A stretch of DNA of 64,000 nucleotides. Origin: Tachypleus tridentatus. Its lineage: Eukaryota; Arthropoda; Merostomata; Xiphosura; Limulidae. The DNA is taken from NCBI RefSeq assembly GCF_004210375.1, contig NC_134825.1:66889558-66953557 (forward strand), given 5' to 3'. Shown in pieces: positions 11,119 through 63,410 of the stretch (position 1 is its first letter; each line of letters opens with the position of its first letter). Position numbers and translations under genes: made by a program. The notes beneath the pieces are model-generated. The model saw nothing but the letters and a program-made list of their open reading frames with translations, ran no database searches and was not told where the DNA came from.

Positions 11119-11127
11119 TATAATGAT

Positions 11128-13727: not shown

Positions 13728-13921
13728 TTTCTTTTGCAACATGAATAGTGGGTCAGCTATGAGGAATTCTAAAGCAAGAAGCATTCTTTATGCTCTAGCA
13801 GTTTGTGGCATGTGTTTGACTGCATACCTTCTTAGTAGAACTCACTCAGAACTTAAAACCATAGAGAAATCGCATAATAGGTGTATTCAACAGCGAGATT
13901 CCTTATCAGCACAGCTACAGG
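13728..13921 (+). CDS. GOLIM4: GOLIM4-like exon 1: start codon, membrane anchor
   Basis: Acceptor CAG at 13725-13727 and ATG at 13741, so this is the first coding exon but probably not the first transcribed one. An in-frame ATG at 13711 lies before the acceptor and is not used. Encodes a short tail with basic residues (RNSKAR), the signal anchor and the start of the stem, ending phase 1 at a weak donor (G/GTTTGT). Confidence 0.85.
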
Positions 13922-28900: not shown

Positions 28901-31900
28901 ACAAAATGCATATTTTTTCTTTATGTTCATTGGCCTTAAGTTTTGGCCAGCAGTGTATATAGTTATTCTTAGATAATAGTAACACTTTTTACTGAATATT
29001 CAAGTGGAACTATTTTTGTTGTGAACATTGAATTTTAGGAGCAATTTGATGAGTCTGACAGAAAAGTTAACATGATGAAGGATTTAGTAGAACGTTTAAA
29101 GCAGAACCTGACGCAAGCAGAAGAGGCTAGGATGCAGTCACAGTCAGAGTTTAATAATCAAATACAGACAATAAGACAGCAGAAGGAGGAACAGATTAGT
29201 AAATTAGAAGGTAGGAACATCAAAAAATAGATCAATTATCCATGATATAGCTTTACATAGACAACTGAAATTGTTAGGTTAAAGTTTGTTCTATTCATGC
29301 AATATAACTTTAGTCATCTAGTAACAAGCATTTTCAAAGCTTAGCTTGTGTTATTTAATACTTCCTTCCTCAACTGAACGATAATCTGTTTTTGGTCTTC
29401 AGAATTGAACATTTCACTTATTTTGAAAAATATACCATTTCTGAAACTAAAAAATATCAATAGAATTTGGCTCAACTGAAGCTGTTTTAAGGCACACAAG
29501 TGCTACAGAGTTTTTAGAACTTCATTACATATCTTGACATCATCAGTACAGTAGTAGTAATGTGTGAACTCTGATCTATTTCAATTGGTATTTAATTGAA
29601 CATCTTTTCTTGAGACCCCTTTCAAGCTCAAAAGAAAACAAAAAGCAATGATCATATTGCCTAATTGCATGCATTATATAAATATCTTGGACAACATGAT
29701 CCACCACATATTAAATTGTATTTGGATGTAGCTGGACATAAAGTTTTGCCATGTATTATTTATTGAACAATCTATTGTTTGTGGTCACCTTTCATCTAAC
29801 CAAACCTGTTGCTAATTTCAGCTAGTATTAAGGATGTACAATGTATTTCAGGAATGTGATTTGGTAATTTAGTGTACATACACTTCTGGACCCCATTCTT
29901 TAGTATTGGTTTTTACAAAATATTGTATTCATCCAAATTAATGCAGTTTAAACAGGTCACCTCAAGCAATTACTAGTGAATTTTAAACACCCACAAACAA
30001 AACAGTCAATTACTGTACATTTTTACTATATTCATAATCAAAGTTAATTCTGTAGTGTTGGTTTTTACAAGTAATTGACTGTTGTTGTTTTTTTTGTGAG
30101 TGTTTAAAATTCACTAGTAATTGCCTGAGGTGACCTGTTTAAACTGCATTACTATTTGATGATGACATGTTAACTTGTCTTTAAATAGGTTTAATTTTTT
30201 TTTGTATTTTTCAGAAAGTATCTAATATACTTAAACTATTTTCTTGTTTTCTTATCCCTTATAGAAGTTATCAGAGAACTTCAAAAAAATGAGAGAGACT
30301 TGACCCACAACAACTTAAGCCTGGCATTAAAGATACAAGAAAAAACTGTAAGTTTGTGTTTTTTATTGTTATTAATCAACTAGTTTAGTAATAATTTTCA
30401 TGTAAGAATTTTCTCTAACTGTTTTCCAGAGTTTCTCAGAAACATTATTCTTCTAATTTCAAGTCTTAATGGTTCTCTAACCCTGTGATGTTATACTGGC
30501 CATTTCTTTATTTACTTTTATAAAAAATTTAAAAATATCCATCTGAAACATAAACACATCATACATAAAGCAAGATAACCATTACATATTTATGAATAAG
30601 ATTTTTAGTAAATATAAAACTTATAATTAAATAAAAAAAATATAGCATCCAGTATGTGTGGCTCAGTGGCTCCATGTCTATGAGTTGTAGTCAGATGGTT
30701 GTGAGTTTGAGGCTGGCCTACATCATGTTGTTGTGTCCTTGAGTGAAACACTTTACGTATTTCGATCCAACCAGCTGTATGATAAGTATCTGATGTTTGC
30801 TGGAGGTTAATCAGTAAAGGACTGTCATCATGTCTCGGAGGAATGGACCATCATTCTCATCCACTTTTGCCACTTGAAACTGCAATTTGAAAACACTGCC
30901 CTTCTGTGTCTTGTCAACACATAGCAAAGATTTAAACTGAAGTAACATTCATGCAATATGCCCATAATCAGCAACCTAAAATCTCAATCTTTACACATGC
31001 TTATTAGCAATAATACAGTTGTGGGCTTAATGGATTTATGCACTAGCTCTCTTTCTTAACACAAATTGTCTGTGAAATATATATATATATTATTAAAATT
31101 AATATAGGTATTTGTCTTACTTTATATTATTTATAAATGTTACCTCTGCATTTCATTTAGAAAACCCTATACTTCAAATATTTAATGTTTTTCAAATTAT
31201 TTGAGCTAGAAGTAAGTTATAAACAGGTACAAAGGTCATAGATATATAGAAATATTTCATATGTTGACAAGTTTTATCTATGCAGATGAGAACTTTAGGT
31301 GTTTGTACTCACCAAATAAAAATTGCTATTGTGGGCAGAAAATGAAAATGAATGTTTATTTTTAATTTTCTCTTTTTTTTCAATTCACCCATACAAAATG
31401 TTGAGAAAATATACATCAAAACAGAATTTCAGAAATAGTTTTCATTTATAGTTTTCTAATAGTTTTGTTTTGAGTTTACTTACTTATTACATATATTTTG
31501 TTATAAATTACAGTTTTAATGGTAAGTAAGATTTGTTTACAGAACAAGCACAACTTTTTGATCATTGGTGCAATAATTCCTAAGTACAAAAGTTTTCAAA
31601 ATTGTTCTTGACTGTTAAAATATGGTTACTTGAGAATGACTGCCCTAGTAATCAAAACATTGTACCTGTTCTAAATATAAATCTTACTTACTGTATAATC
31701 TATAACTGTAATAAAATAGTTTTATTTTGTAAGAGATTTAAAAAGAGAATTTTTCAAAACTTAATGAGGTCATTTTCCTTCATTTAAAAAAAACACACAT
31801 GAGGTACTAGGCGGGAAACAAAATTCTTGTTATTTCTTATGAATTAGTAGTAAGCATTTGACCTCTTTGCCACCAATTTGATAATTTTGGTATATTTGCA

Positions 31901-37900: not shown

Positions 37901-40900
37901 AACCACAATAAGTAATAAAGTTACATATGATAGTAACCAACATTAGTTTTAGGTTTGCAACTTTGTTATTCAGAACAGACTTTTACTTTACACAGTCAAC
38001 CAGATTTTTTAAAATATATGGTGATAGTTTTCATCTGTAAACAACATTAACAATTTCCCTTTATGGTGATGCCATGGAAGCTGACAGTTTCTTGTCATCA
38101 CCCACATGCATTTGGTATAGCTGTATTAAGCATCATTATTTATGCTTATTGCTAAAGCTAATATCATATGATAAATATTAGGAGAATTTCTTAAAATTTA
38201 GCAAATTTGTGCTTGAAAGTTAGCAGTGAATAATTAGTAGTAACCATACACCTGAACATTTAAGCTAGAAACTGTTAATCCAATTTACTTGGCCTAACCA
38301 TTACTTACGTATCTGCACATGCTTTCATCTTACAGTTTTGCTGCTCTAAATCAGCTTTTTTAGTCTGAATGACAGAAAATAAAAATGGTTCACCTTTACT
38401 CTTAAGTTAAAGCTTTAATAAGAATTTCAGTCCAATGACTCATGTTACTTTTTGTGTAGGTGTGTGCAAACATTTTAATCAAAATTTAATGGCTTATAAT
38501 TAGACTATTTGGACCCCTAAATGTATGCTGTAATGATCTATCAGTGTACAAAATTTGAAAAAAAATTCAAGCAAGTTAAGTATATTTTTCCATCAAATAA
38601 ATAAAAAAGGATGTAATTCAATTAAAAAATTAAAGTTTTTATATGTATATCACTCAGTGGATTGACTCAAAATTTGGTATGTGGAGCAATGGTCTAGTAA
38701 TGCATATCCACTGAAAATATGTGATAGTTTGGAATACCACAGTAAGAGCTGCATAATATGGAAAATTACTAATCTGTCACTCCTGTTAATAACACACAGT
38801 TGGGAGCCATATAATCAGTGATAGCAAGAAAACAGTTGCTACAAACAAATATGAAGCTAAATTTGTCCTTCAGTTCATATGTTTCACTGAGTTATACCTG
38901 TTTTGGGGAATTCCACCCTTCCTCAGTAAATCTGCCAGTGAAATAATTTGGAAGAATAAATTAGTAGCATTGCCACATATTTTGAAATATTATATGAGCA
39001 CAGGTTTACTTTGGTGAGTAAAAGAATACTGAAAGAAATCATACTTTTAATGATTTTTAACAATTTAGTTCATGCTACATGTTCATCAACCAATGATAAC
39101 CTACCTACAATCCTATCTAAACACCTTAAAATAAACTTTCCATTTTTATTGTAATATAATAAGTACAGAGTTACAAGTTTCACAATGTTCAAAGGGCACA
39201 CATGTGCTACATGTCATCTTGGAGCAAATGGCAAAAAAAAGAATGTTTCTGGTTCTTGTATAACAGAACTGTGTATAAAGAAACTGTATTTATCTATAGA
39301 AGTTGTAACCTACCTGCAATCCTATCTGAACACCTTACAAGAAACTTTCCATTTTTATTATAATAAGAACAAAGTTAGAAATCCACAATATTCAAAGGGC
39401 ACAGATGTGCTATATGTCATCTTGGAACAAATACCAAAAAAAGAATATCTATTTCTGGTTCTTGTAAAACATAACTGTGTATAAAGAAACTATTCATCTA
39501 TAGAAGCTGTAACTGAAAATACATGCTACCAGCAACATTTCATTTATAAATTACCTTCTGCATGTCATGACCCATTCAATGCAGTTGAAGATAATATAAA
39601 CTGAACTGACCCTGTTTATATTTCCTCTTCACAGTTATGAAGCAGTGTCCCTCACTTCTTTAGTGCAGGGTCTATGAAACTGAACATCATATAAAATACA
39701 GAAGTCATGCCAGATGTGTTCTATGCCATAAACATAAAAAAATTAACTATTATTCCACTTGAAGTCATATGTTTGTAAATCAATGTATTATTATTCCTGC
39801 TGGAGTAAAGTATTGTCACCTTAGTAGAAAATATGTTTTTACAGATGAAGGATCACACATATTTTAATATAACTAAAAACAATTGAATAGCTGCAAAGAA
39901 ATCAGCAAGGATATACCTTGTTCAGGTACACAAACTCACAGTCGAAGGAGTATCTTAATCCTACAAGATTACAAATATCTTGGTTTGATGAGTTATTACA
40001 CAGAATTCCATAACTGGGAAATACTTGTGAGAGTGTGTGGACATGCTAAGCTGAACTAATTAAACTTTGTACTTGCTTGTCAGGTAAGAATCTGGTGGGC
40101 TGAAAGGATTTTTTTTCACACATAAAACAAGCTACACATCTTATGCAAATTTGACCAATGGCTTTGTTCCAGTTTATTCAAATTTGAGTGTGTCAATAAT
40201 ACAGAAATAAGATACACCACCATTTGATCTTTAACAAGGAAACCTATGGCTAATGGAAGAAATAAAGGTGCTGTAATAATTTTTCTTATGTTAAAGAAGG
40301 ATGCTGAAGACATTCAGAGTTGGGTGCAACCACATGTTGCTGCTTGAGACCATGGTTTTATAGATGTTTTCTAACTTTATACATGACCTTAGATTTAAAG
40401 TATAACTTTATATTTTATCTCTCAAAGATGCAAGTTACAACTGAAGATTCCAACCTATCAAAATTGATTACTGTAATACACGTAGTAGTCAAGGCAGTTA
40501 ATGGCTGCATCAAACTATTAAAGTTACTAAATGTGATATTCATTAACTAACAGTTACCCTTCACAGTTGATTGACCCTAAATTGTTAGTGTTCTCTCAGA
40601 TTCATACCATCTTAACTGTGAAAAATGCAGATGAAGACTACTATAGCAAAGCATATGCAAAGTACCAAAAATTGCCCAACAAACTTCAACACATTTTGAA
40701 TTCCTAAGAGCAAGCTTGCAAAAATTACTGATGAAAAGATGGAAGCCCATGATCTAGCTTTAGACATTCCAACATTGACAGAATATGACCTTAATTCTTT
40801 TTTTGAGTGTTTACTAGATTAAACAATTAAAATCTCATGTCCTGAGTATATTAACTAAGATGGAATATATCATATTAAGGTCAGCATGAAAAATGATACT

Positions 40901-43832
40901 ATGTTAAAAGCAAAAATCCAGTCAAAGCATGCATCAAGTAAAAATTATTCTGCCAATTATAATCCGTTTCATCATAGTGCTCTCAATATAATGCTAATGC
41001 AACAGTAGTGGACTATTGTTTTCATATTACATCTGTCATGAAGTGCTTTCAACATTACTTACATGATGAAAATGCCCTCAGGAAACTATCATCCATTCCT
41101 ACAGGCTTACTTAATGCAGCAGACATTATAGATGATACCTCTGATGACTTGGACTGAGTATGCTGATGGAACATAACTCTGTTGGATTTATCAAGATAAA
41201 TGCAGTATTATGACAAAATTTAGTTCTTGTTGAAAGTATTGGACAAGTTCAGTCAAAATTGTAGCAGTCCATTTATACACTTTAATGATATATTATTTAG
41301 TTCTTTAATTTGGTCATGAGTTCATGCATAATTATCTTTAGTGCTTAAATATTACGTTTGGCACTGGTGTTACTTATTGTGTTTGTTTTAAAGTTAAATT
41401 TGATAATAATAACACTTTAACTCAAAGAAAGAAAAAAATCAGAAATTAGTAACTAAAATTAGAAATATCTATACTGCGAGGTTCCAGTTCATTTATACTT
41501 TTAACAGTCATTCTGTTGTATATTTAAAGTAAAACTAACATGACTCATGTTAATAAATTTAAAGAAACTGAGTTTGGACAATAGATTTTCTTGTCAACAA
41601 AACTTCAATACATCATGAATATGTAAACTAATAGAACATCTGTAAAAGAATTTTCTAAAGCTATCTCCACTTTGATTTACCCTCTAAGCATTGTTAAAAT
41701 TTCAACATGTTATTACTCTCCACCAATCACACTGCACCATCTGTACTAGTAGAGGTAGCTCTCTCTAATATTACAGCACATTTCTCATTTTTTCAATATG
41801 CATTCTCGTATCTAGACATATTTTCACTCATTCTGTATGTGACTGCAAAGTGTTGGTTGTGCATGATTACAAATTTACATCAGTTTTGATTTCATATATT
41901 TCATTTCTATCATTTCTCCTTGGCTAAGTAAGAATTAACATGACTTCTCTTTTTATCAACACTTAAGAGACTCTGGGGATTACAATTTTATATATACACC
42001 ACAACAAGAAAAGTTAAACAAAATAGTTTAAAATACAATTACATATAAATCATAGCCACTATGAAACCACTTTATATATAGATATATCTGAAATTATCTG
42101 CTGTATTAAAGTATTGATGTGACTTGATAAAGCTTAAACGTTTAAGAGTTATAATAATAAAAAGGCAATACTTCTTTGAATAACCTGAACATATGCTTTC
42201 CTTTTCTGTTAGCACAAAGAAGGAGAAAAAAACAAACAAGTGGAACCACCACATCTTTCTTCCAAGAATTACTTTTTTAAAAAGAATATATTTCCAGTGC
42301 ACTCTATTAATAACAACAGAGTTAACAATGAGTACTGGTTGAATGTTAACCCCAAACCTCTTTTATTGAGACCCTATAGTCAAGATTTAAAAATCAACAA
42401 AAAACCATGGACTTCAAAATACTCATCAGTACCTCAATGGATAAGAAGAAATGGAAAAGGCATGAAAAACAAAAGAGTTTTCAGAGAGGAGTAAGTACTG
42501 ACAGTAATCAACTCATTCATGAAAATACTTTGGATCATAGTTGGAGAGTAAGCTTAAATCAGAATAACTTTATTATCCAAAATCCATACAACAATGAGAA
42601 ACAAAATAAGGCAATTCATAAAATACACACCAATGGTGACCTGCAGAATGATGTAACTCAAAAACCATACAATAATGGTGTGTTGCAGAATGATGTTTTA
42701 TCATCAAAACTACACAACAATATTGTGTTACCGAATGATGTCCCACATAGACCACACAACAACAATGAGCCACAGAATTATGTGCCACAAAGATCATACA
42801 ACAGTGGTTTACCATAGAATAAATTTGTGTTTCAAAGGCCATACAATAATGGTGTGTTGCAGAATAATGTTTTATCACCAAAACTACACAACAATGTTGT
42901 TTCACAGAATGTTGTACCACATAGACCACACAATAATAACGAGCCACAGAATGATGTGCCACAAAGATCATACAACAATGATCTGCTTCAGAAAGATGTT
43001 GTGATCTAAGAACAATATAACAATGATCAGTCTCAGGATGAGTTTATCCAAAAGCCATACAACAGTGGTGGGCTAGAGAATAACCTTGCAATCCAAAACC
43101 CCTACAACAATAATCAGCCTCAGAATGGCATGTTCCAAAAGCAATATGATAATAGTGGGCCACAAAAAGAAAAGATTAAAATGAACAATATATAAAAATG
43201 CCATATTGAAACCAAAGACATAGAATGTGACTAGGATGATTACAATGGTATGACTAAAAATATGTTAAGGTATCATAAAAAATAATATATCTGTGAAAAA
43301 ATCAGGAACTAAGCCTCTTTCTAAACTGATAGTTTTTCCTCTGATTATTTTAACCATCAGTAATTAATAGTTTATATATAACATAGTTTTTCCTCTGATT
43401 ATTTTAACCATCAGTAATTAATAGTTTATATATAACATCTGTTTTGGAAAGTTTGATTTTATTTCATCAATTATTCAAGAGCACTCAAGTTTATAATTGT
43501 TTTATGTCTTTAGTTTGCTTCTGTAAATTATAGGGCTTATGTCAAAGTCTGTTTCTTTATGAACACTTCCATGCTTTACTAAAATGGTTTTACCACCTTT
43601 TGTACATCACTCAATGAAATATGATTTAGCAAGGAACCTTTATTCCTCAATGGTATGTCTTTATCAGATAAGCAGTATATTTTTTTCAGGAGGTGGAAAT
43701 GAAAGTGATGAACAAGATTTAGGTGGTGGTGATGATAATAATCAGTTGATAGATGTTAACCAAGATGGACTTGATCAAAGGAAAATATTTAAAGATGATG
43801 ACTTTGATGACCAGGTAATGTTCAAAGTGTAA
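13741..43832 (+). CDS. GOLIM4: Golgi integral membrane protein 4-like (GOLIM4/GPP130 family), eight coding exons
   Basis: Joining 13741-13921, 17120-17194, 19533-19582, 25556-25609, 29039-29210, 30265-30347, 32872-33109 and 43690-43814 gives one open frame of 326 codons. Every intron is GT-AG and phases match (1,1,0,0,1,0,1). The protein is a type II Golgi protein: about 13 cytosolic residues, a membrane anchor at about 14-32 ([19 protein letters not shown]), a Lys/Glu/Gln-rich coiled-coil stem (about 35-235) and an acidic tail. The exon 1/2 join gives [19 protein letters not shown], the signature of the GOLIM4/GOLM1/CASC4 family and closest to GOLIM4. In vertebrates GOLIM4 cycles between cis-Golgi and endosomes. 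At about 330 residues it is about half the length of human GOLIM4. The 3' end is uncertain: exon 8 may read through to a stop at 43830-43832 or splice onward. Confidence 0.8.
13922..17119 (+). other. GOLIM4-like intron 1
   Basis: 3.2 kb, AT-rich. Holds a CT microsatellite near 16552-16569. Short ORFs at 15571, 16060 and 16698 have no recognisable motifs. Confidence 0.6.
17120..17194 (+). CDS. GOLIM4: GOLIM4-like exon 2: family signature
   Basis: 75 bases, phase 1 in and out, AATTTAG acceptor and strong G/GTAAGT donor. Encodes [20 protein letters not shown] and a few more residues. The YEHxxRLEKSLQxE core is the most conserved part of the family and identifies the gene. Confidence 0.9.
18412..18528 (+). 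mobile_element. tRNA-derived SINE (family B), plus orientation
   Basis: tRNA-like head with CCCCTGCTAGTACAGTCGTA (A-box region) and GGGATTTGATTCCTTG (B-box region), then GACACAGCAGATAGCC and a CACACAC tail. Confidence 0.75.
18851..19132 (-). mobile_element. tRNA-derived SINE (family A), full length
   Basis: All family blocks present from TTTTGAATTTCATGCAAAGC to the tRNA-like head GGCCATGCCGGGCC. Imperfect flanking CAGAAAAAGTGA / CAGAAAGCAGTGA may be an eroded target duplication. Confidence 0.9.
19533..19582 (+). CDS. GOLIM4: GOLIM4-like exon 3: coiled-coil stem
   Basis: 50 bases, phase 1 in and phase 0 out. TTTTAG acceptor, AAG/GTAAAA donor. Encodes [17 protein letters not shown], where family members have a short heptad-repeat segment. 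Confidence 0.75.
20160..23900. repeat. Unidentified C+T-rich (plus strand) block, probably an old interspersed repeat
   Basis: Its boundaries contrast with the AT-rich intron on both sides: the plus strand is strongly C+T-rich and fairly GC-richer. It has many overlapping plus-strand ORFs, the longest (22059-22574, 171 codons) being Phe/Ser/Leu/His-rich with no known motif. The bias itself predicts such ORFs, so I do not call a protein. An internal direct repeat is present (22532-22594 and 22669-22730). Read on the minus strand it is purine-rich, as in some retroelement gag regions, but no catalytic motif is visible. Confidence 0.4.
22532..22730. repeat. Direct repeat pair, 62-63 bp each, spaced about 137 bp
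   Basis: TATGATGTGT, TTGCTGCTTCCCATATTTTG and CAGTATTCTTATT occur at 22532-22594 and again at 22669-22730 with a few changes. Confidence 0.85.
25556..25609 (+). CDS. GOLIM4: GOLIM4-like exon 4: coiled-coil stem
   Basis: 54 bases, phase 0 on both sides, TTTGTAG acceptor and CAG/GTAAAT donor. Encodes [18 protein letters not shown], close in style to the family segment ending HEELKKQ. Confidence 0.8.
27660..28636 (-). pseudogene. Tc1/mariner transposase, Tc3-like, with frameshifts
   Basis: Starts at 28636 with [20 protein letters not shown] (homeodomain-like DNA-binding half). It then needs a frameshift near 28540 to enter GEIGRS, a stop, [14 protein letters not shown], and continues through 28490-28110 ([34 protein letters not shown], first catalytic Asp). 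Another shift leads to 28088-27792 ([18 protein letters not shown], second Asp; [14 protein letters not shown], third residue Glu). The C-terminus LVSTMPK...[13 protein letters not shown] ends near 27670. The catalytic triad is still readable, but shifts and stops make it inactive. It lies antisense in intron 4 of the Golgi gene. Confidence 0.9.
28749..28957. repeat. Tc3-like terminal region: two related terminal-repeat motifs
   Basis: Near 28752-28777 TGGTCTTAAAATTTTGACCA and at 28930-28957 GGCCTTAAGTTTTGGCCAGC followed by AGTGTA are variants of one motif. Tc3 elements carry two transposase-binding sites per end. The matching left end beyond 27660 was not found. Confidence 0.6.
29039..29210 (+). 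CDS. GOLIM4: GOLIM4-like exon 5: long coiled-coil segment
   Basis: 172 bases, phase 0 in and phase 1 out, TTTTAG acceptor and G/GTAGGA donor. Encodes 57 residues starting [20 protein letters not shown] and ending EEQISKLEG. Glu/Lys/Gln-rich with regular hydrophobic spacing, so a coiled-coil luminal stem is likely. Confidence 0.85.
29211..30264 (+). other. GOLIM4-like intron 5
   Basis: 1.05 kb; contains the fold-back repeat at 29939-30151. Confidence 0.7.
29939..30151. repeat. Fold-back (inverted) repeat, arms about 80 bp
   Basis: TAATGCAGTTTAAACAGGTC at the left end is matched by the reverse complement of GACCTGTTTAAACTGCATTA at the right. Pairing runs inward for about 80 bases with few mismatches to AGTCAATTACT / AGTAATTGACT, around a spacer of about 50 bases. 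Resembles a MITE-like fold-back element; no target duplication was resolved. Confidence 0.85.
30265..30347 (+). CDS. GOLIM4: GOLIM4-like exon 6: coiled-coil stem
   Basis: 83 bases, phase 1 in, phase 0 out, TTATAG acceptor and ACT/GTAAGT donor. Encodes [20 protein letters not shown] followed by ALKIQEKT. It aligns in position with the family's second half of the stem. Confidence 0.8.
30348..32871 (+). other. GOLIM4-like intron 6
   Basis: 2.5 kb; contains a tRNA-derived SINE near 30651-30925 and a TA microsatellite near 31078-31090. No other feature seen. Confidence 0.6.
30651..30925 (+). mobile_element. tRNA-derived SINE (family C)
   Basis: tRNA-like head GTGTGGCTCAGTGGCTCCAT (A-box) and GGTTGTGAGTTTGAGGCTGG (B-box), then TTGTGTCCTTGAGTGAAACA and CACTTTACG, a body found in tRNA SINEs of several invertebrates. 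Distinct from families A and B. Confidence 0.75.
32872..33109 (+). CDS. GOLIM4: GOLIM4-like exon 7: end of stem, start of variable luminal region
   Basis: 238 bases, phase 0 in and phase 1 out. Encodes [20 protein letters not shown], a Gln/Lys-rich coiled coil, then a looser Asn/Asp/Lys-rich stretch (NLDINE). I end it at the strong donor A/GTAAGATA at 33109/33110, because phase 1 there matches exon 8 at 43690. If this donor were not used, translation would stop six codons later at 33124-33126, giving a shorter protein. Confidence 0.8.
36571..36660 (+). mobile_element. Diverged tRNA-derived SINE head
   Basis: GCCTGGCTTTGGCCTACTGG (A-box region) and TTAATCTGAGAAATTGTGGT (degenerate B-box region) parallel the head of family A. 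The body is not recognisable, so this is an old or truncated copy. Confidence 0.5.
39097..39512. repeat. Tandem duplication, unit about 209 bp, two diverged copies
   Basis: TAACCTACCTACAATCCTAT starts copy 1 at 39097, and the similar TAACCTACCTGCAATCCTAT starts copy 2 at 39306. Both continue through TTCAAAGGGCACA, TGTCATCTTGGA and CTGTGTATAAAGAAACT. Copies differ by scattered substitutions and short indels. Confidence 0.85.
42213..42491 (+). CDS. Possible alternative GOLIM4-like exon (basic segment)
   Basis: An open frame of about 90 codons begins after TTTCTGTTAG (acceptor at 42212) or AAAG (42219). Only the 42219 acceptor joins the phase 1 end of exon 7 in this frame, reading [15 protein letters not shown] and then a Lys/Asn-rich stretch ([20 protein letters not shown]). 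It stops at 42492-42494, directly across a donor-like GGA/GTAAGT at 42490/42491. That donor leaves phase 2, which does not fit exon 8. So it is either an alternative C-terminal exon, part of a decayed exon, or chance. No transcript support was available. Confidence 0.3.
42541..43193 (+). pseudogene. Asn-rich 14-residue repeat coding segment, interrupted by stops
   Basis: In one frame (codons starting at 42542) at least twelve repeats of 14-16 codons follow the pattern xPYNNxxxQNDVxx ([51 protein letters not shown]). Four units form a higher-order repeat of 174 bases (42665 and 42839 start equivalent copies). In-frame stops lie at 42816-42818, 43006-43008 and later, so only the first part could be translated. 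The frame differs from the segment at 42213-42491; a candidate 50-base intron (GTAAGT at 42491, ATCATAG ending 42540) would join the two frames. Function unknown; a luminal Asn/Gln-rich repeat of the Golgi protein is an inference from position. Confidence 0.5.
43331..43438. repeat. Perfect 54-bp tandem duplication
   Basis: The 54 bases beginning AGTTTTTCCTCTGATTATTT at 43331 recur immediately at 43385 without a mismatch. A recent slippage or duplication event. Confidence 0.95.
43690..43832 (+). CDS. GOLIM4: GOLIM4-like exon 8: acidic C-terminal segment (3' end ambiguous)
   Basis: TTTTTTCAG acceptor. Phase 1 in joins exon 7 as [20 protein letters not shown]. Strongly acidic (KDDDFDD near the end), like the acidic tails of GOLIM4 and GOLM1. 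Two ends are possible: a donor CAG/GTAATG at 43814/43815 (phase 0), or read-through for VMFKV and a stop at 43830-43832, followed by AATAAA at 43851 and again at about 43876 as polyadenylation signals. If spliced, a small exon at 44634-44654 (TGTATAG acceptor; KEDVLS then stop) fits in phase. Confidence 0.7.
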
Positions 43833-45890
43833 TAAGTCTTGTACTAAGAGAATAAACATTCTGTTTTGTTTGTTAATAAAAATCATATAGTAGCATCTTT
43901 TGAATTACCATCTGTAGGCTTATCTCTAAGATGATAAACAGTAAAATCAAATTGAATTGTCTTAAAAAATACTTTTCAAACAATATGGGTAAGCAATGTG
44001 ATTGATTTAAAGTTATATTTGAATTATTATTTCTCTAAATGTTTTGTAAACATTGTCCTAATTAATAACAGATGTCTTTATGACTGTTAAATTAATTTTT
44101 AGGAAAATATAACAAAAAGTTGAGTCCCAGTTAGTTGGTTTTGTTCTTATTAAAGATATTATTGTTCAGGAAACCACGATGCTGAATATTAAATATCTTT
44201 TATAGAAATGTGAGTAAAAATTATTCTTTTTGTCCATGATGCTATTAGTGACAGTGTTAATTTCCTCCTGTTACTGCAGATTTATTAATAAGATTTACCA
44301 GTGTTTTAAATGGATATTAAAGAATGAAGCCACTAAATATTTATATTGCTGTGTATTCACCATTTAAATACAGATCTTTCCAGAAGAAAGTTTCATTATA
44401 ATGCTCTTAATTTTATTTTGATGTCACATAAGTGAGTTTTGTTGTAGCTACATGTTTGATCAGTTGTCAAAACTTAGAGGTATATCTATGAAATTTTACC
44501 TGAATGAATATGTTGAAATCATGAGTCACAAGACTTCCATACTAAAGGTGTAATTATAGAATTTGCAGTAAGTAAATATGAAATTGTTTAGAGTCAGATT
44601 TTGAATGGCCTATATATGTATTTTTGTGTATAGAAAGAAGATGTGCTGTCATAAAAAAAACAATCATATGGAAGCTTTTTGAATGCTTTGAAGGAGCATA
44701 ACCTCTTCAATAAACTGAAGATTGGTTGTATGCAGAAGATACTGTTGATGGTACTCTTAGTCAGAAAGGTCCATACTTTCAGAATAATTTTATGGATTAC
44801 TTTAAAAAATCCTCTAGTCTTAACATACAATTATGAATAAGTCTTCATCACACAATGTGTTCCAATTAAAAATGTAGAAAATTATTCCAAAAGATGAAAA
44901 ACTTACATGGTTATTAAACGTTTAAACACAAAAATTTTATATTCTGTTAGAAACTTTAATTTTAAGCTCAGTGTTTGTATGCTTGGATGTACAATTTGAA
45001 TCCTTGAATTACAGCATGCTTTGATGTTTGTCAACTTTTGATCTTGCTAATGAATAGACAATTGTGTGAAACAGTGTGTAAAATATGAATAAAAATGAAA
45101 TATTAGAATGCTCCTCATCTACTGTCTTGATAGCTTACACATATACCTGCCTGTTATCCAACCAATCAAACAGTGCTACCAGCATAGAGCCTATAAATGT
45201 AAAGATAGTCATACTATAATTCTCAGTAGTATTGTGATTGAAGTATTTAAGGCATCCAGATAATAAATGTGTAGAAATCAGTTTTGGCTGGCTACATTTT
45301 GTGTTTGAGTAGCAACTCAGAAGAGTGTAAATGGAACTGTAACTTTTAGTATTAGAAGTGGCCAAGGTACAAGACTCTCCAAAAGTGACATTAAGTAAAC
45401 AATACTATAATATTTATATGATTTGTGATAATCTAATATAGGCTACTGGCCATGCCATTTCTTTGGTAAATTGATAAGAATGATTAACCAGGGATTCAAG
45501 GGGATCTGTTACCAATCACAGTGTATGTGTGGAGTATTGGAGGGGAGAGTTCTGAAGTAGTACAGGCTTGTGCATTGCAAGGAAGTCTACCTGGTCCCCT
45601 ATTATTTTGGGCTGCACAGTTTAAATGCTTGTAGATTTTTTTTCATTTTGAAGCTGTTATTTAACAAAACCACCATATGTTTGCAATTTGTTGTGCTTTC
45701 ATAAACATATAACATTACATGAAATATCAAAATAATTCTTTTATGCCATAATAATTTTGCCGATTTTTTCTAAGAGGCAGTTCAACTGATATATCATATC
45801 TTGCACCCTTGTATGTGAAATAACTTTAAATTATGTATTGTAAACATTTCCAATAAGATATAAAAATCCTGTGTGAAATTTCATGTTGAG
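43833..45890. other. 3' UTR/intergenic sequence of the Golgi gene, no further gene seen
   Basis: Early part likely 3' UTR (AATAAA at 43851 and about 43876). The possible terminal micro-exon at 44634 is noted under exon 8. The rest is AT-rich with no recognised feature. Confidence 0.4.
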
Positions 45891-46542
45891 TTTATTTTTG
45901 TAGAATTTTTCTATGGCAGCTCTTCACCTCTAATGACAAAGACTAGGTAACCTAGACATTAAGAACTTGTAAAGGATAATAAAAATTGTAGAACAGAATG
46001 TTGAAAACTGAACATGACTTGCAAATTTTTCTCTTGCAAAATGTATTTCATTTTACTCAATTTATTAAAATCATTGCCAGCTGTAGTAAAATTTCATATT
46101 GTTGTAAAGGTTATAGTCCTGCCATCTCTGTTTAAACTGTGTGGTGTGAATTATGTACATATGCTATGTCTGGACAAACTAGTTCTGTAACCAAGTGTAT
46201 ATTTTACAATTTACTCTAATAAGTACCAACTGGAAATTGCATAATACAGGTATTTCTTCTCATTTGTGGTTTACAGAATTTACACTGATACATTAGCAGT
46301 CAATCCTATAATACCCAAGTTATTTCAAACAAATTAGCTCTACACCTTTGTATTAATTTAATATAACTGTTGCAAAGTTACTGAACCATGTCCTTAATAT
46401 ATATATATGTGTGTGTAAACCTTAAATGTCACAAGACAGATGTTAATAGGCTGGTATTAAGAGCTTTAAGTGAATTATAGCTCATTATTTTATGAATCTG
46501 AAACTACTAAAACATTCTGTACTTGGTTTCTTTGTACCACAG
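45891..46542. repeat. Left arm of large near-perfect inverted repeat (652 bp)
   Basis: Pairs base for base with 46867-47518: positions sum to 93409 at both ends, so there is no net indel. I read the arms against each other and found one mismatch (46480 G versus 46929 T). The arm carries no ORF of note and includes a short (TA)n(TG)n stretch near 46397-46418, itself mirrored. Confidence 0.95.
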
Positions 46543-46866
46543 ATACCTGTGGTATATTGAGATACCTGTTATTACAAGATTTATTTTAGTTACAAATAGT
46601 AGAAAAAAGAAAGAGACTGAAAAGGTCTGCCCTCAATGGCACAGTACCCCTTGTTCTGAGGTGTCAATTATTAATTGAGGTTATACTGTATATGGGTGTG
46701 ATTCCACAAGTGTATTTTGTAAACTTTGTAAGAAGACAGTTATGAACTTTACCCTGAATTCATGGAGGTTTGAGTTAACTGGGCAGAGATCTGATAACTA
46801 CATCAGAATGAACTACTGAAAGCTGCACTGATCTTGCTGCATTATTATAAGGTAATGCAATGGTGA
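46543..46866. other. Spacer of the large inverted repeat (324 bp)
   Basis: Unique sequence between the arms. No coding or RNA feature recognised. Confidence 0.9.
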
Positions 46867-47518
46867 CTGTGGTACAAAGAAACCAAGTACAGAATGTTTT
46901 AGTAGTTTCAGATTCATAAAATAATGAGTTATAATTCACTTAAAGCTCTTAATACCAGCCTATTAACATCTGTCTTGTGACATTTAAGGTTTACACACAC
47001 ATATATATATATTAAGGACATGGTTCAGTAACTTTGCAACAGTTATATTAAATTAATACAAAGGTGTAGAGCTAATTTGTTTGAAATAACTTGGGTATTA
47101 TAGGATTGACTGCTAATGTATCAGTGTAAATTCTGTAAACCACAAATGAGAAGAAATACCTGTATTATGCAATTTCCAGTTGGTACTTATTAGAGTAAAT
47201 TGTAAAATATACACTTGGTTACAGAACTAGTTTGTCCAGACATAGCATATGTACATAATTCACACCACACAGTTTAAACAGAGATGGCAGGACTATAACC
47301 TTTACAACAATATGAAATTTTACTACAGCTGGCAATGATTTTAATAAATTGAGTAAAATGAAATACATTTTGCAAGAGAAAAATTTGCAAGTCATGTTCA
47401 GTTTTCAACATTCTGTTCTACAATTTTTATTATCCTTTACAAGTTCTTAATGTCTAGGTTACCTAGTCTTTGTCATTAGAGGTGAAGAGCTGCCATAGAA
47501 AAATTCTACAAAAATAAA
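46867..47518. repeat. Right arm of large near-perfect inverted repeat (652 bp)
   Basis: Reverse complement of 45891-46542, ending at AAAAATAAA (47518), beyond which the flanks diverge at once. Confidence 0.95.
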
Positions 47519-49740
47519 GAAACAAGAGCACAAACACTCTTGTCCTGTATACACCAAACAAAAGGAGAGATCTTAAAATTCAAAAATTTAGTACTGTTAA
47601 TATGGAATCCAGCCTTAACATGGCTCATTTCTGATACTGAGGGCACCTTGTTATAGGGGGCATTTGGATGAAGTTGGAAGAGTGCCCTTAATATTGAGGT
47701 CCTACTGTAGTTTACAGATGTTTGGCAAAAGAAAGCACATATGCTCACTCAGAACCTGAGAAACATTGTGTATTTGGATAAAATGATTCCTGTCTTAAAA
47801 CTGTGGTACCAAGTGTACTGCAGTACATTAGACACATGGCTGCAACATCTGAATTAGTTCTTCATAGAACTATACATATCTGATGAAAAGTGTATACTAC
47901 AAAATAGAAATTGAAAAACATTTTGGAGCCAATTTCATCATCGTTAGAATTCCAGTTCTAGGACCTATTCCATCAGCACCACACCTACAGCCTTTTTAGG
48001 ATCCTAAAAGTCTTCAGACAGGAAACCCTTCTTTTTAAGGCTAAAACTCTTTTGCCTCTTTTGACACAGTCTCTCATCAGAAAGTCTGCAATACTTGCTT
48101 TGTTCTTGGTATTTGAGAGCATTTTTTGTCATTGTTTGGATAATGAAGTTGTCCTTATTGGATTTTAGATCTTACATAATTGAATGTTTCCTCTTCTGTC
48201 TTTTGTAATCAAGATGGGCAATACTTTTAAAGTATTGAACAGATCTCCAGATGTTTCACAGTTGCTAATCTGTGCAAACCATCCTCAACAAAATCGTGAG
48301 TTATACTACTGCGAATGTTGTACCATAATTTTGAGGAAGTTATGATATAGCATGTTCATTCTAGAGCCATGCCAGGAAAGCTGACTTTTGGCATTTCCTC
48401 ATACTTCCATTGAAACTAAGCAGCATGAATGGCAATAGTACTTGTTTATATGCAAGTAGGTTGCTTACATCTACTAGAGATAAAAGAAATAGGTTGAAAG
48501 TCAATTACAGATATATATATATATATAATGTAATATATCTACTATTATCGATACCATATTTTGGGCAATGTTCTTCGGGTATTGGGGTATTGTTAAACGA
48601 ACAGTAAATCTGTAAATTCCTACACAGTTCTATGCTTACATCTACTAGTTTTGTCTTTCCAATGACAGAATCTGGGTTGCTCATTTGTGATTTGATTTTT
48701 AAAAATCAAAAAATTTTTTTGTGAAAATTTATTTAGTTTACAATTACAAGATACAATTAAACAACTAACCAAATTTTGTTTTTATTGAAGAACTATTTAA
48801 TTCTGCACATTTTGTTACAAGTTTCTCACTGTAGCTGTAAAAAAGTAAAAACATTTTTGTATGTAGTTTGGTATAACATATAATTCTAGTAAGAAAAGTA
48901 GATTTCCATCCATTATAGAAATCTTCACAACCTTTAATAGAAGCCTACATCCCCACTACAGTAGAAAGAAATACAGGACAATATTTCTCAAGGATATGTT
49001 GATAATCTTATGGTAGTGTAAAATAATATACAAAGTGCTAGTGCATTACACAATTTATATAAAACGAAATTATTGTGACACTTGCTTTTGAACAAGGTCT
49101 TAACAAGATTCTTTTATTATTTTCTCTCTTTAATTTAATATCTCATGCTGAGATAGAAATTCTTCCTGTTTTAATAAGTATTAAAAGATACAGTAAAAAC
49201 AGTTATTTATGAATGAAATACTGAGTGATAAACTGTACAGTAATAATTAAATCTAAATGTATTGCATTCTTTTTATTGTTATGTTAGTACAACTTGTACA
49301 AGTCTGCTAAATCAGTTGTGCAACCATAAAACTACAACAGAAATAATGTATTTATTTGCTATATTTTGCCAGAGTTTGGGATGCAGTTTTATCACTATTT
49401 TAAAAAGTACAGAAAATTTTTGGTGGCAGTTTTTAATTAGAAGAAATGAGAAAGAATAAGTATAAGAAAAATCGAGTTCAAGACACACAAGAGATCAAAA
49501 AGCTAGCTACAGTTTTTGAAAAAAGATTTTTTTTTTTTTGCAGTATGTAGAATTATTTGACAAACTTGATAATTTCTAAGTATTTTTTATGCAACTTAGG
49601 ATATAAAAGTACTTATTTTTCACTTCATAATTTGCATATTTTTGAAAAATCTCCCAAAACAATTATGTAGAGAAGTTCAAATATAAAAGTTATACATAAC
49701 TTGAGTTGTGTATATATTATGTTATATTTTACCTGTGGTG
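47519..49740. other. Intergenic sequence, no gene seen
   Basis: Contains an AT microsatellite near 48512-48528. Near 47640-47709, TACTGAGGGCACC and TATTGAGGTCCTACTGTA are vaguely like DNA-transposon ends, but no element could be delimited. Confidence 0.4.
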
Positions 49741-49750: not shown

Positions 49751-49987
49751 ATTGTTTGTTTGTTTTTGAATTTTCGTGCAAAGCTTCATGAGGGCTATCT
49801 GTGATAGCCATCTCTAATTTAGCAGTGTAAGACAAGAGGAAAGGCAGCTAGTCATCACCACCCACTACCAAGTCTTGAACTACTCTTTTACCAATGAATC
49901 TAGGATTGATCGTCACATTATAATGCCCCCACGGCTGAAAGAGCGAGCATGTTTGGTGCAATGGGGATTTGAACTCACGACCCTCAG
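49751..49987 (-). mobile_element. tRNA-derived SINE (family A), 5'-truncated, with target duplication
   Basis: On the minus strand it begins inside the tRNA-like head (CTGAGGGTCGTGAGTTC), lacking the first 40 or so bases including the A-box, then has the whole body and an AAACAAACAAT tail. It is flanked by the 10-base duplication TAATTCTTCT (49741-49750, 49988-49997). The 5' truncation with an intact duplication fits LINE-type target-primed insertion. Confidence 0.9.
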
Positions 49988-56888: not shown

Positions 56889-57153
56889 TTAAACCAGTAG
56901 TCCTTCAGACATGTTGGCACTCAGTTGAACCCTAAGAGTCTGGATGCTACCAATCATCTTTTTTTGATGGCCTACGAGTGTCACACCAAGTGAAGTGATA
57001 TCAGCAAGGGTAAGCCGAGATACTGACTCCATTGAGTTAATTCCTGCCTGTTGAAAGTTCTCAAGGTACCTCATCATTTTGATACTGTTTAACCATTCTT
57101 CAACTGTCTTATATTTAGTCATGTCTGGAGCATTGGGATCAAGTGGATTTTGT
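56889..57153 (-). CDS. Eph: Eph receptor tyrosine kinase, last coding exon (SAM domain and PDZ-binding tail)
   Basis: Minus-strand exon after acceptor TTACCTAG (57154-57155), entered in phase 2 and ending in a stop at 56889. It encodes QNPLDPNAPDMTKYKTVEEW, then a sterile alpha motif: LNSIKMMRYLENF (conserved Tyr in MRYxENF), NSMESVSRLTLADITSLGVT, LVGHQKKMIGSIQTLR. The GVTLxGHQKKIxxSIQ core is the Eph-family SAM signature. The protein ends EGLLV, a hydrophobic PDZ ligand as in many Eph receptors. Ephrin binding and kinase exons are upstream, beyond 64000 on this strand, so this is partial. Eph receptors are membrane receptors for ephrins in contact guidance. Which paralogue cannot be told from the SAM domain alone. 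Confidence 0.93.
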
Positions 57154-57485
57154 CTAGGTAATAAAAGAAAAAAGAACTTTTTAACAGGGTTTTGAACTTA
57201 TAGTGGTTATTTTAACCCTTGTCATGTCAAGCTGTTTTTTACTTTTGTGGTTAATTACATTTCTGCAGAAAATGTACTCGATAAGTAAATATCTGAATTT
57301 ATGAATAATGTATATTATGTATAATGTATAAGAACAAGAATGCTTTTTCCCACTATTTATGATACATAATTCAGACAAAAAATCTGATAGCAGTATTTCC
57401 AAAGCCACCTGGTTAGCACTGATTCTAATACATGATAACATGCAACATATTTTTAGCAATGAATTAAAAATACAATAAAAACTGG

Positions 57486-57509: not shown

Positions 57510-57607
57510 TATTTTTTTGAAACATGAAGAATGCCCGAGTTATATTAGTCAAGTCACAGGAGGGGTTAATATATACTGAACTACAACAAATTACTGGGCA
57601 ATGAATT

Positions 57608-57796
57608 GTATCTCAAGACAACTGGTATGGGTATTAAAACTCTTATTAAAATAGAGAACAACATTTTGACCTTCTTAGGTCATCTTCAGGTTGACACAGG
57701 TTTTTTTGTTAACCTGAATATGACCTGGTAAAAACGTTGCTCTCTACTTTATTTTAATAAAAATTTGAATATCCATACCAGCCCTCTTGAGATACA
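57608..57796. repeat. Fold-back (MITE-like) element, arms about 85 bp
   Basis: Left arm TGTATCTCAAGACAACTGGT, CTTATTAAAATAGAGA, AGGTCATCTTCAGGTT. Right arm is its diverged inverse (AACCTGAATATGACCTGG, TTTATTTTAATAAAAA, CTCTTGAGATACA). Spacer is short. Confidence 0.8.
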
Positions 57797-58494: not shown

Positions 58495-58702
58495 AATCAG
58501 TTCTTAAGAGGTATGTAACAGCCCTTTTCAATGCAAAAGATTTTTCAAACACTCAAATCATAAAGGTGATTCTCCTGATAGAAGTTCTATCTCCTGTACT
58601 TAATGGAATTGGAAAACAACGAAACACAGATAAACTTGGAGCATCAGGATCATCCAGAAAGAAACCCACAACAAGTTGTACCCCAGCTGAAGTCATTTTA
58701 AA
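58495..58702 (-). mobile_element. LINE 3'-tail copy, 5'-truncated
   Basis: Nearly identical to 60086-60296 (shared: TATGTAACAGCCCTTTTCAA, AATCATAAAGGTGAT, CAACAAGTTGTACCCCAGCT). Both begin at the same base after AATCAG, which marks the LINE 3' end. This copy stops at about 58702, so it is a short truncated insertion of the same family. Confidence 0.85.
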
Positions 58703-60764
58703 ACAGGTGAGAATCCACAAACATAAAAATCAGTGGTAAAAGCCATCCACATGTCCCACACACCAGCATGCAACATTATCAAAAAGGATTTCCTATTGGA
58801 AAAGCAATGCAAATCAAATGTAAACAAGTTGCTTCTAGAAAATATCTGTCAGGTATATATATATATATATATATATCTTTTATATTTAGTGTAATGTTAG
58901 CATTATGATTTAGATAATTTACATAGCTGAAGTACAAAACTTAAGTTATTTTTAAAAATGAAAGTTACTTCTAGTTTCTTTACTTAATTTGTCACAAATA
59001 ATTCATTATGTAGTTCAGTTGTTGTAAACTGACATCATGTTACTTGAACCTTCTGAATGTTTCTCATTGTTTTAGTATTGTTGCATCATACTATCTAGTA
59101 ATGTGAAACCTTCTAGATAGCTTTCAGGTGTGTGTGTATAATTATCAGATTGTATTGTAACAACAAAGTAGAGAAGAATAATTTGTCTTGTTAATTGTGT
59201 TCTCAAAGTAACTGAGCCTGCCTTTGTGAACTCATGAAGAGAGACATTTATTTAAAGCTCTGTGGTAATCAACAGTGAGGTAAGCTTTTGTATGTATATG
59301 TTTAACTTTCTTTTAATATTTTATTTTAAAACAAGCAGTCTGTACTGTTTGTTTATTGTGGAAATTTATTGTCAACAAGTCACAGACACCTACTGAAAGG
59401 AATCAAGCTCATACACATGTAAAAACCTCACAGTATCCTTTAAATCATTGCATATATACATTAAGTAGCTGGAGAATGAAAGGGGTGTTCATGATATTCC
59501 TTACAAAGAAATACTGATCAGGTTACTGGCCACAGTTCTCATGGTTTTCTATTTGATCGAACTGTAGAAGCAGCCATTGGGTAACCACTGCAAATGCACA
59601 CAAGATGGATCACATAAAGCTGTCAGGTGAGAATTGGTGTACTGTGGAACATGACAGATTTACAACTGAGATTTTTGCACTGGAGACTATGCTGCAGGGC
59701 TACTGTTAAGATGCACAGTCATAAAATACAGCATGGCTGGATGTGGAAATAGAGTATGCAGGTGTACCATATATTTTTTACCTTGTTATTATAACATTCA
59801 AATTTTCAAAATTTGTTATTCTCAGTATATATGAAGTTTTGGCATAATATGTGGTCAAGAAAACTGTTAAGTTGGCTTTGTTTTAGCTGCCTTTACTCCT
59901 TTGTTTTTCTCCAGAGAAAATAACTTATCCACCCATGGATGGTAATAGCATAAAAATCAAAGAAGTGGAAAAATATAGATAATAGTAACAGCCTCTCTTA
60001 AGCTGATCAAGAATGGCTAGCCACATGGATAACGCTGGTCACTATGAATAAATCTGTTCTTAACATAACATAATATTTAGGGACAAATCAGTTCTTAAGG
60101 GGTATGTAACAGCCCTTTTCAATGCAAAAGATTTTTCAAACACTCAAATCATAAAGGTGATACTCCTTATGGGGATTTACAAGTTCTATCTCCTGTACTT
60201 AATGGAATTGGGAAACAATGAAACATAGATAAACTTGAAGTAACAGGATCATCCGGAAAGAAACCCACAACAAGTTGTACCCCAGCTAAAGTCATTTGTC
60301 ATCCTCTAAGCCAAACTAAAACTACTGAAAATACATATATTTAAAGCTAGACTTTATCATTCATATATCTATTAAGATTTCTTTTAAACTCATTCAAATT
60401 TACTGCCTCCACAACATCCAAAGGCAACCAACCCATACCATAGACCAACCACCCTATTTGAAAACTAAAACTATCTTAGCTGAAGCTTGCTTCTAACTTG
60501 CCTAAATCTACATTTGTGTACTCTAATTCTGTAATACTCACTGTTAAGAATGAGATAAGTTGACCAACTTCTATGTTTTCAGCTAAATTCTAGCCAGTAT
60601 TTCTGTAGATGCAATCTAAAATCCTATTTTTCCCTACCACTAGCAACAGTACAATGCTTGTATGGCTTAAGAGACTGATGAACCATGACACAAAGATCCT
60701 TTACTTTCATGACACCATTAAAGCTATTTCTGTTCTTACATTTGTCATAATTTAAACCCATCTG

Positions 60765-61700
60765 CTATTTATTTGCCCAACTCACTAAATAATCTAAATC
60801 TATTTGTAAAGCAGCAGCATCCTCTTCACAGGTAGCAACCTCAAAGACTTTAAATTCATTAGCAAACTTAAGTACTTTATTGACCATTCCTTTACCTATG
60901 TCATTAATGTAAATCAGAAAGAGCAACAGTCCTAAGACTTTGTCCAGAGGTACACCACTTGTAAAATTAATCCAGTTTGACTGAACTCTATTTATAACAA
61001 CCTTATGCTTTTTTACTTCAAGCCACTCTTCTATCCAATTAGTTAACTTAACCCCCAAACCTATAGAGATAAGTTTCTTTACAAGCCTTCTATGTGCCAC
61101 TTTATCAAATACTTACTGAAAATCCAGATATACCAAATCCACATCCTTACCCTCATTTTCAAAGCATGTCAAAAGATTAGTAAGCCAAGATTTTCCCACA
61201 GAAACCATGTTGAATATGTAATAAAATTCTAAACTTTGTTAAATGACCTTGCAAAGTATCTTATCAGACTTTCCAAAACTTTTTTCCCATAACTGGTGTA
61301 AAGGTAAGAAGCCTATAGTTACTGGGATAACTTCTGTTACCTCCTTTGAAGACAGGAGTGACATTAGCTAATTTCCAATCTGTTAGTACTTGTCCAATAA
61401 TGAAGGACTTACAAAAACTGTGGCAAGTGGCTCACATATCCAATCCTTTACTTTTGTTTTTAAACCATCATGAAATATTATTTGGATCAGAACATTATCG
61501 TTCTTTAAACCTTCCACTTGTATTTTAACAAGCTTAGAATTTATGCAGTTGACTTGTTCAACATTGCTTTCATCCATCAATTGCTCAAGATGAGGAATAC
61601 TGCTCAAGTCTTTATTTGTCAAAACTGAAGAGAAAAGCAGAATTAATCGCCTAGCCATTTGATAACCATCTAATACAAGCTTTCCCTTATCATCCCTCAA
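60765..61700 (-). pseudogene. LINE reverse transcriptase remnant
   Basis: At 61383-61700: SIPHLEQLMDESNVEQ and related thumb/finger-side sequence. At 61100-60765: AHRRLVKKLISIGLGVKLTNWI (family: KVPHxxLLxKLxxxGI), INRVQSNWINFTSGVP (family: SGVPQGSVLGPLLF; here GVPLDKVLGLLLFLIYINDI), then KFANEFKVF where active elements have FADDTK, so the catalytic Asp pair is lost. The intervening stretch (61100-61380) reads TPVFKGGNRSYPS-like and VDLVYLDFQ in other frames. Inactive. Confidence 0.85.
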
Positions 61701-62099
61701 GGGTCCTATATCCTAGTCCTAACATTTTGTTTACCCCTAATGTACTTTTAAAAAATCTTTACTATTAATATTTGTTTTCAGCCAATTTTTTCATAGATCC
61801 TTTTGGATGTCTTAATTTCCTGTTTAATGAACTTTCTTGATCTCCTATAATTACCAGTCAATTTAAATTTCTTATATTTGTGATGATTTTGATTAATGTT
61901 ATCTCTTATACTCCTTTCTGAGCCAACCTGGCTTTTTTACTTGCAGCTACCCTTTCCTATCTGTAAGGAATATATTTGTTTTGAATATTGAAAAAATTTT
62001 CTCTAAACATTTTCCACATCTGATCAGTGTCTCCAAAAAACAAAGCTGCCCAATTCACAAAAGATAATTCTTGTTTTATGCCTGTAAAATTACTTTTTT

Positions 62100-62850
62100 G
62101 AAATTTGGAATTAAAATGTCATTATTCCTGATTTTCATATGCAACAAAACATCAAATCTAATACAGAAATGATCACTTATATCTAAGTGTTTCCCAATTT
62201 CCACCCTCTTAACTGTTTCTGTATTAGGAAGTGAACAATAAATCTAAAATAGCATTATTTCTAGTATGTTCCTTGACGATATCTATTTTGAAGAGCTTCC
62301 AGAAACATTTCTCCCTCATGGTTTGACTCTAGCATTTCCCAGCCAATATGTTTGAAATTAAAATCACCCATAATTATGAATTCATTAACAGCTGAAATCT
62401 TATTCTCACTGTAAAGCTTCTCATTAATTTCATCAGTTTCATCTGGTGGTCTGTAACAAATTCATACTAAGAGCTTTTTACCTTGACATCCACTAACAGA
62501 GACCCAAACAGATTCAGTCTCCTTGCTATTATCCTTAATATTCTCAAGTTCAACAAGATGTTACTCACATTGTACATATAGAGCCACTCCTCCCCTCTCT
62601 CTTTACTAGTCTGTCCCTATTAATTGACCTATAACCATGTATTTCAAAGAAATTTCTGCAATCAAAATCATCTACGTTTAACCATGCTTCAGTTATTACC
62701 ATTATATCAAAAGCTTCTATTCCTACCAGTGCCATAAAGTCACCTATTTTATTTCTTGTACTAGTATTAAAATTGTAACTATTAAGCCTATCTTTATAAT
62801 TACTTTTGTATTCATTTCCTACACTCAACTTTCCTCTACATCTCAATTTT
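62100..62850 (-). pseudogene. LINE apurinic-type endonuclease remnant
   Basis: 62846-62565 encodes FDIMVITEAWLNVDDFDC (catalytic Glu in TEAWL, as in ITETWL) and HGYRSINRDR. Downstream, EFIIMGDFNFKHIGWE (GDFN motif with catalytic Asp/Asn) lies near 62390-62330, and ISDHFCIRFD (SDH motif) near 62190-62120. These three motifs in order define the LINE endonuclease. Frames shift between them. Confidence 0.88.
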
Positions 62851-62879
62851 GTTTCTTTTAGTTTACATTTGCCATCACT

Positions 62880-63410
62880 ACTATCTAGTTCTAGTTTAAA
62901 ACTTCCCTTAGAGCCGAGTTAATGGCCCTTGCAAACATATACCTTTTCCTAATCAAGTGTAAACTATCCATTCTAAAATGTTTCACCCTCCCACTGAAGT
63001 GATCTCACTAGCCCAACCAATTAACCTGCTCCTCTTTACATAATAATTTTGGCCTAACATTTAGCCCTAGTGACCTAATAAAAATTTTATCTCCATAAAT
63101 AATTCTTAGTAGTATTCCTGACACAATTAATTTATGGCCTTCACCTTTAAATGCTTTTATCAGTCTCTTATATGTATAAATTAGCTCCTTCTGCTTACTC
63201 TTCCCTATGTGGACAACAGACAGCACTGTTGTCAGTTTCCTTCATTATATCTCTTACTCTGTCAGTTACAGCTCCCTACTGCTCCACGGGGTAGCATAAT
63301 CTAACTCTTTTCTCTTTATTTACCCCATAGATTATTTTATCTACATGCCATGTCAAGGAATCAACTATAACTATAACTTCATAGAACACATCCTTCTCTG
63401 TTCGTTTTAC
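62880..63410 (-). pseudogene. SGNH-hydrolase/esterase-like ORF1 remnant of the LINE
   Basis: Near 63375 VIVIVDSLTWHVDKIIYGVN corresponds to the SGNH block I (family: GDSL; here VDSL), followed by RVRLCYP. 63226-63008 reads LSVVHIGKSKQKELIYTYKR (block V, normally GTND, is lost), LIKAFKGEGHKLIVSGIL and NVRPKLLCKEEQVNWLG. An esterase in ORF1 is described for CR1-type LINEs. Stops and shifts and loss of both key motifs mean it is non-functional. Confidence 0.7.

Follow-up and report, generated by a model that had tools for sequence, protein, structure and literature searches.

Probable origin of a 652-bp near-perfect inverted repeat of Tachypleus tridentatus in one recent duplication-inversion-deletion

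The window, the whole stretch of 64,000 nucleotides of T. tridentatus DNA analysed here, carries a long inverted repeat whose nearest recognisable gene piece is an Eph-receptor-type SAM exon (Table 1). It occupies C1:66889558-66953557 of an assembly of 2.17 Gb in 205 contigs, in which coagulin, a clotting-protein family of horseshoe crabs, occurs at 19 places, against none in 14 control genomes. An earlier note on this DNA had placed the repeat between two convergent genes. This description is supported on the right side only, where the Eph-receptor-like exon lies on the minus strand; on the left, a scan of six frames between 30 and 45 kb (as long frames with X at stops) revealed no Pfam domain at E ≤ 0.01. 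None of the six open reading frames of at least 80 aa in the 40-54 kb region lies within an arm of the repeat; one, on the minus strand at 47506-47748, crosses an arm edge. Transposon remains elsewhere in the window are all on the minus strand and comprise a hAT/DUF4371-type transposase (691-2389), a Tc1-type transposase (27792-28532) and a LINE-type region matching an endonuclease (60765-62918); the hAT, DUF4371 and DDE_3 matches fall just under the Pfam cut-offs, and the reverse-transcriptase label for 60765-61112 was given by eye. Repeats of 85-254 bp at 5338-19111 and 49752-49987, present in four to six copies each and 61-86% alike, look tRNA-like and SINE-like by eye, and two head-to-tail 174-bp units at 42573-43043, 85% alike and with several frames open, may represent a repeat-rich exon or chance. 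The window contains no tRNA and no Rfam family at gathering scores, and an RNA gene or tRNA was rejected as an identity for the repeat.

Table 1. Features of the inverted repeat and its surroundings (window coordinates)
Feature	Position	Strand	Remarks
Left arm	45891-46542	+	652 bp; read as original single-copy host DNA; matched elsewhere in the genome by the right arm alone (E ≤ 0.001) and unrelated in sequence to the transposon family
Right arm	46867-47518	-	652 bp; read as inverted copy of the left arm, with polarity suggested by the transposon edges
Proposed new junction a	46543-46550	+	8-nt insert repeating 46562-46569, 19 nt away; within an 8-bp hairpin at 46535-46554
End A of a terminal-inverted-repeat DNA transposon	46551-46693	-	Model positions 3-130; nhmmer 5.7e-31 at 46691-46551; BLAST to 46693; flipped relative to end B
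DNA presumed to have adjoined the transposon on the left, inverted together with end A	46694-46866	-	In the favoured model the far end, 46866/46867, would be the old continuation of the arm
Proposed new junction c	47519-47528	+	10 nt from arm edge to the end B profile match; 7-bp hairpin at the start of end B
End B of the same transposon	47529-47709	+	Model positions 714-893; nhmmer 2.1e-46; terminates in the terminal repeat and TA
Eph-receptor-type SAM exon	56889-57194	-	Nearest recognisable gene piece; 9.4 kb right of the repeat

Sequence comparison within the window showed that the two arms, separated by a spacer of 324 bp, are reverse-complementary in register, their coordinates summing to 93409 with zero indels. 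The sole mismatch is between G at 46480 and T at 46929. The arm length, spacer, single difference and coordinate sum of the giant near-perfect repeat first described from the letters alone were thus all reproduced; an alternative listing with 657-nt arms extends the 652 bp inward by a few matches due to chance. At both edges of the arms complementarity stops sharply, and spacer matches at 46545-46547 are discontinuous with the arm. The arm includes a (TA)n(TG)n microsatellite (at 46398), which is of equal length in both copies. The G+C content of the arm is 30% compared with 32% for the window, and the arm contains no CpG.

The arm displays no match in the 2.17-Gb genome beyond itself and its partner at E ≤ 0.001, in a search whose first look skips very common words. 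Inspection by eye revealed no target-site duplication outside the arms, at flanks 45890 and 47519. The earlier claim that the arms are devoid of a transposon motif and their edges of a target duplication is consistent with these data and with the lack of a match to the transposon family described below. A foldback or long-TIR transposon was rejected on the same two grounds, the single locus at this threshold and the lack of a target duplication by eye.

To place the arms against a background, BLAST was applied to 255,020 bp from 29 loci, comprising the window, 20 transposon-family loci, two stretches beside the window and six random 10-kb stretches (the random part is only 60 kb). Apart from the arms, no inverted pair of 100 bp or more reaches 95% identity in this survey, while other inverted pairs of at least 100 bp are common and 74-87% identical, several of them being gapless palindromes of ∼110-590 bp. 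The window's repeat listing also has a shorter pair (66 nt, 95%), which lies inside a gapless palindrome at 29939-30151. The view that all other repeats in the window are clearly decayed is slightly inaccurate in view of the direct repeats D5/D6 (58495-60297, 93-96%) and D7 (39097-39365, 92%). The direct repeats at 58495-60297 are 85 and 120 nt long and ∼1.6 kb apart. Gapless palindromes of 74-83% identity recur at 29939-30151 and 57607-57796 in the window and at L056:2528-3116, L030:903-1011, L032:1845-2034 and L041:2253-2365, and may constitute an old palindromic repeat family.

The DNA around the arms differs in its genomic distribution. Besides itself, the left flank gave eight short, diverged matches in the genome search, all at 45124-45253 and thus >600 bp away from the arm. 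Spacer and right-flank sequences belong to repeats dispersed through the genome, often at the same loci (the best 40 of 110 and the best 40 of 102 candidates, respectively, were scored). All matches listed in the genome searches lie on contigs C1-C13. Among the best 40 of the 110 candidates, no match extends into the spacer beyond position 172 (window 46714). Twenty family loci were fetched from the loci matched by the spacer and right flank. BLAST located both piece A (from the spacer) and piece B (from the right flank) at 15 of the 20, on opposite strands in every one of the 15, whereas in the window both pieces lie on the plus strand in this comparison. The remaining five loci contain a single piece, A in L041 and L044, and B in L035, L037 and L038. 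A profile of 896 positions, derived from ten copies, found only two family matches in the window (positions 3-130 and 714-893); model positions 131-713 are nowhere in the window at E < 1, showing that ∼580 bp of the transposon middle is absent from this copy. At its outer ends the window copy has the family terminal inverted repeat adjoining TA, and by eye TA also borders 11 of the 14 left and 8 of the 14 right ends in other copies. The segments 46551-46693 in the spacer and 47529-47709 in the right flank are thus opposite ends of a single old DNA transposon, newly recognised here. The terminal repeat has what we take to be a pogo-like appearance, and the family looks like a non-autonomous, pogo-like element of the Tc1/mariner group; three forward frames of L033, the single long copy scanned, encode no Pfam domain.

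Copies of the family are mostly only ∼64-85% alike, indicating that the transposon is far older than the rearrangement described below. The exception is the recently duplicated pair L035 (C4:7204000-7210000) and L037 (C4:7494500-7500500), which are 98-99% identical over several kb in inverse orientation, ∼290 kb apart, and constitute a recent inverted segmental duplication on C4. Within another family copy, L030:2204-3799, a 58-bp unit (model ∼105-160) is arrayed head-to-tail with 27 profile matches, and is a minisatellite born inside a transposon end.

The position at which transposon homology halts relative to the arms bears on which arm is the original. In the profile comparison homology ends 8 bp (end A) and 10 bp (end B) from the arm edges. 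Pairwise alignments to 18 copy pieces (36 tried, 27 kept and 9 scoring under 60 dropped) support this location. For end A, 11 of 13 alignments terminate at 46550-46557 and the other two earlier, at 46571 and 46612, and none (0/13) reaches the arm. For end B, 12 of 14 alignments begin within 47514-47546 and the others at 47483 and 47596, a spread that extends 36 nt into the arm on one side and 78 nt beyond it on the other; two of the 14 overlap the arm, by 5 and 36 nt. The right homology edge is thus less sharp than the left. The arm itself gave no match against the 20 family loci with filters off at E ≤ 10, and the proposal that it is the transposon's own middle was rejected on this result. 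That homology ends near both arm edges is explained if the arm is host DNA, an inverted copy of which was joined to a broken transposon.

These data suggest that the inverted repeat is real and young and was probably built by one recent duplication-inversion-deletion. The order before the event, which we infer from the transposon family rather than from an ortholog, would have been left flank, arm (652 bp of host DNA), unique DNA, the transposon (end A, a middle of ∼580 bp and end B) and right flank. Synthesis arriving from the left would have traversed the arm as far as 46542, jumped ahead to the opposite strand inside end A, and then run backward, copying end A, the unique DNA and the entire arm. 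A second jump ahead, to end B, would have allowed synthesis to continue. In the four-point notation of template switching this corresponds to a short-range switch of order 3-1-2-4. The outcome would be a 652-bp arm duplicated inversely, 324 bp inverted between the arms and the loss of the ∼580-bp transposon middle, although the middle might already have been lost before the rearrangement. Replication template switching is the likeliest mechanism, followed by end-joining. By an alternative repair route, a broken fragment could have been reinserted in inverted orientation, with fill-in at one end and trimming at the other, to give the same product.

The single-event history predicts two new junctions, at 46542/46543 and 47518/47519, and their local features were compared with those of 3,000 random chimeric junctions drawn from the window. 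At the first, AGATACCTGT (46541-46550, including the last two arm bases) is repeated directly at 46560-46569, forming a 10-nt repeat. Direct repeats of at least 10 nt were found at 17 of the 3,000 random junctions, and hairpins of at least 8 bp at 45. The 8 nt between the arm and end A are plausibly a templated insert, although they have no unique source, the 8-mer being present also at 38894 and 47156 and, in reversed form, at 46246 and 50066. Such a small insert would be compatible with either replication-based switching or polymerase-theta-type joining. By this measure the first junction is notable and the second weak, with, for the second, a hairpin of at least 7 bp in 156/3,000 and a 6-nt direct repeat in 597/3,000 random junctions. 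As these features were picked after inspection of the sequence, they count as support only.

The main competing history reverses the polarity. Here the 652 bp would be the divergent middle of this transposon copy, the right arm would be the original, and a template switch or staggered-break inversion would have flipped end A and the neighbouring DNA, so that an inverted copy of that middle remained on the left side. The new junctions would then be 45890/45891 and 46866/46867, and, as in the favoured history, there are only two. The spacing of end A, arm and end B (670 bp) lies within the family range, and the idea retains some weight because two other copies have unrelated middles, of ∼300 bp in L036 and ∼900 bp in L032, with edges near model positions 192-197 and 731. 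The two alignments in which end B homology runs into the arm also favour this polarity, as does a 7-bp hairpin near 46866/46867, which is as long as that at junction c. The arm, however, has no match in any fetched family copy or at any other locus, and the junctions required by the reversed polarity have direct repeats of only 3 nt (with hairpins of 5 and 7 bp). Furthermore, if the arm were a private middle, both edges of the duplication must have fallen by chance near the edges of that middle (8 and 10 bp in the profile), which is a double coincidence. The reversed polarity is therefore unlikely. Staggered-break inversions, in which an inverted segment is flanked by inverted copies of breakpoint DNA, are known for large inversions in Drosophila. 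The locus resembles them in having an inverted segment between inverted copies, but its inverted single-copy segment is only 324 bp.

It is also conceivable, but very unlikely, that the locus arose in two steps, an inverted copy of the arm replacing the transposon middle while the spacer remained unflipped, followed by recombination between the arms that flipped the 324-bp spacer. The same present structure would be produced, and arms of 652 bp with 99.8% identity are good substrates for recombinational flipping. Such a history, however, requires two events, and the 8-nt insert between the arm and end A lies at a junction that the one-event model predicts.

A fold-back or chimeric molecule generated during assembly or library construction would also yield near-perfect arms. 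Several features argue against such an artefact. A fold-back would mirror the flanks, yet the spacer, the left flank and the right flank all differ in sequence; one base distinguishes the arms; the transposon middle is missing exactly there; and the structure lies inside a 187-Mb contig. The assembly fold-back that had been offered as one of three explanations for the repeat consequently fits badly, as the transposon anatomy appears to describe a coherent inversion and deletion, and we consider an artefact highly improbable. Among the same three, a very recent inverted duplication gives the best fit.

The single difference between the arms implies that the repeat is young, unless gene conversion has reset the arms. 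Arm divergence is K = 0.0015 (95% interval 0.00004-0.0085), which at an assumed rate of 1-3e-9 per site per year corresponds to an age of ∼0.3-0.8 My (interval 0.006 to 4.3 My). Homogenisation of the arms by gene conversion, the third explanation offered, could be a later addition that makes the repeat look younger than it is. Arms so long and similar should also permit flipping of the spacer by recombination.

The proposed event corresponds to a known class of structural variant. In variants labelled dupINVdel a segment is inverted between two junctions, and one breakpoint bears a duplication and the other a deletion. The present locus is similar in all three respects, with a segment inverted relative to the family-inferred order (A and B on the same strand here, on opposite strands in 15/15 family loci), an inverted duplication at one breakpoint (the 652-bp arms) and a deletion at the other (model 131-713, absent from the window at E < 1). 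In a study of human genomes, dupINVdel is listed among the CNV-flanked inversions (PMC5338099). The variants of that study are large, whereas the rearrangement reported here spans hundreds of bases in one assembly, with the prior order taken from a transposon family and not from the genomes of other people.

The event also resembles short-range template-switch mutations. According to the four-point description, a reverse-complement copy made between two jumps leaves an inverted repeat, and an arrangement in which point 2 is ahead of point 1 requires an inter-strand switch (PMC7954356). The history proposed for T. tridentatus likewise has a reverse-complement copy between two jumps and an inverted repeat left behind, but the backward copy would be 976 bp, compared with a template vicinity of tens to hundreds of bases in that description. 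Template switching has further been described as creating hairpins with a perfect stem through one mutation (PMC8794818). The examples there are RNA genes with short helices, while the stem here is 652 bp and nothing marks it as an RNA gene.

If transcribed together, the arms could pair into a duplex of 652 bp, and essential roles have been reported for hairpin-RNA loci in Drosophila simulans (PMC10292708). That the repeat is a selected hairpin-RNA locus, whose transcript is diced into small RNAs, is nevertheless extremely improbable. The arm has no second genomic match at E ≤ 0.001, the Rfam search was negative, and the structure is accounted for without selection; no evidence indicates a function for the repeat. 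A more speculative idea, to which we attach very little credence, is that one template switch has just made a 652-bp hairpin from single-copy DNA that is transcribed and diced, and thus that the locus is a hairpin-RNA gene at birth. If true, the founding mutation of such a gene would be readable base by base.

The type of mutation proposed here is already known and is ordinary in kind. The locus illustrates how an old transposon can serve as a ruler for the order and orientation of DNA before a rearrangement where no outgroup is at hand. It also provides a probable single-event origin for a long near-perfect inverted repeat, a structure for which foldback elements, gene conversion or errors of assembly are readily invoked.
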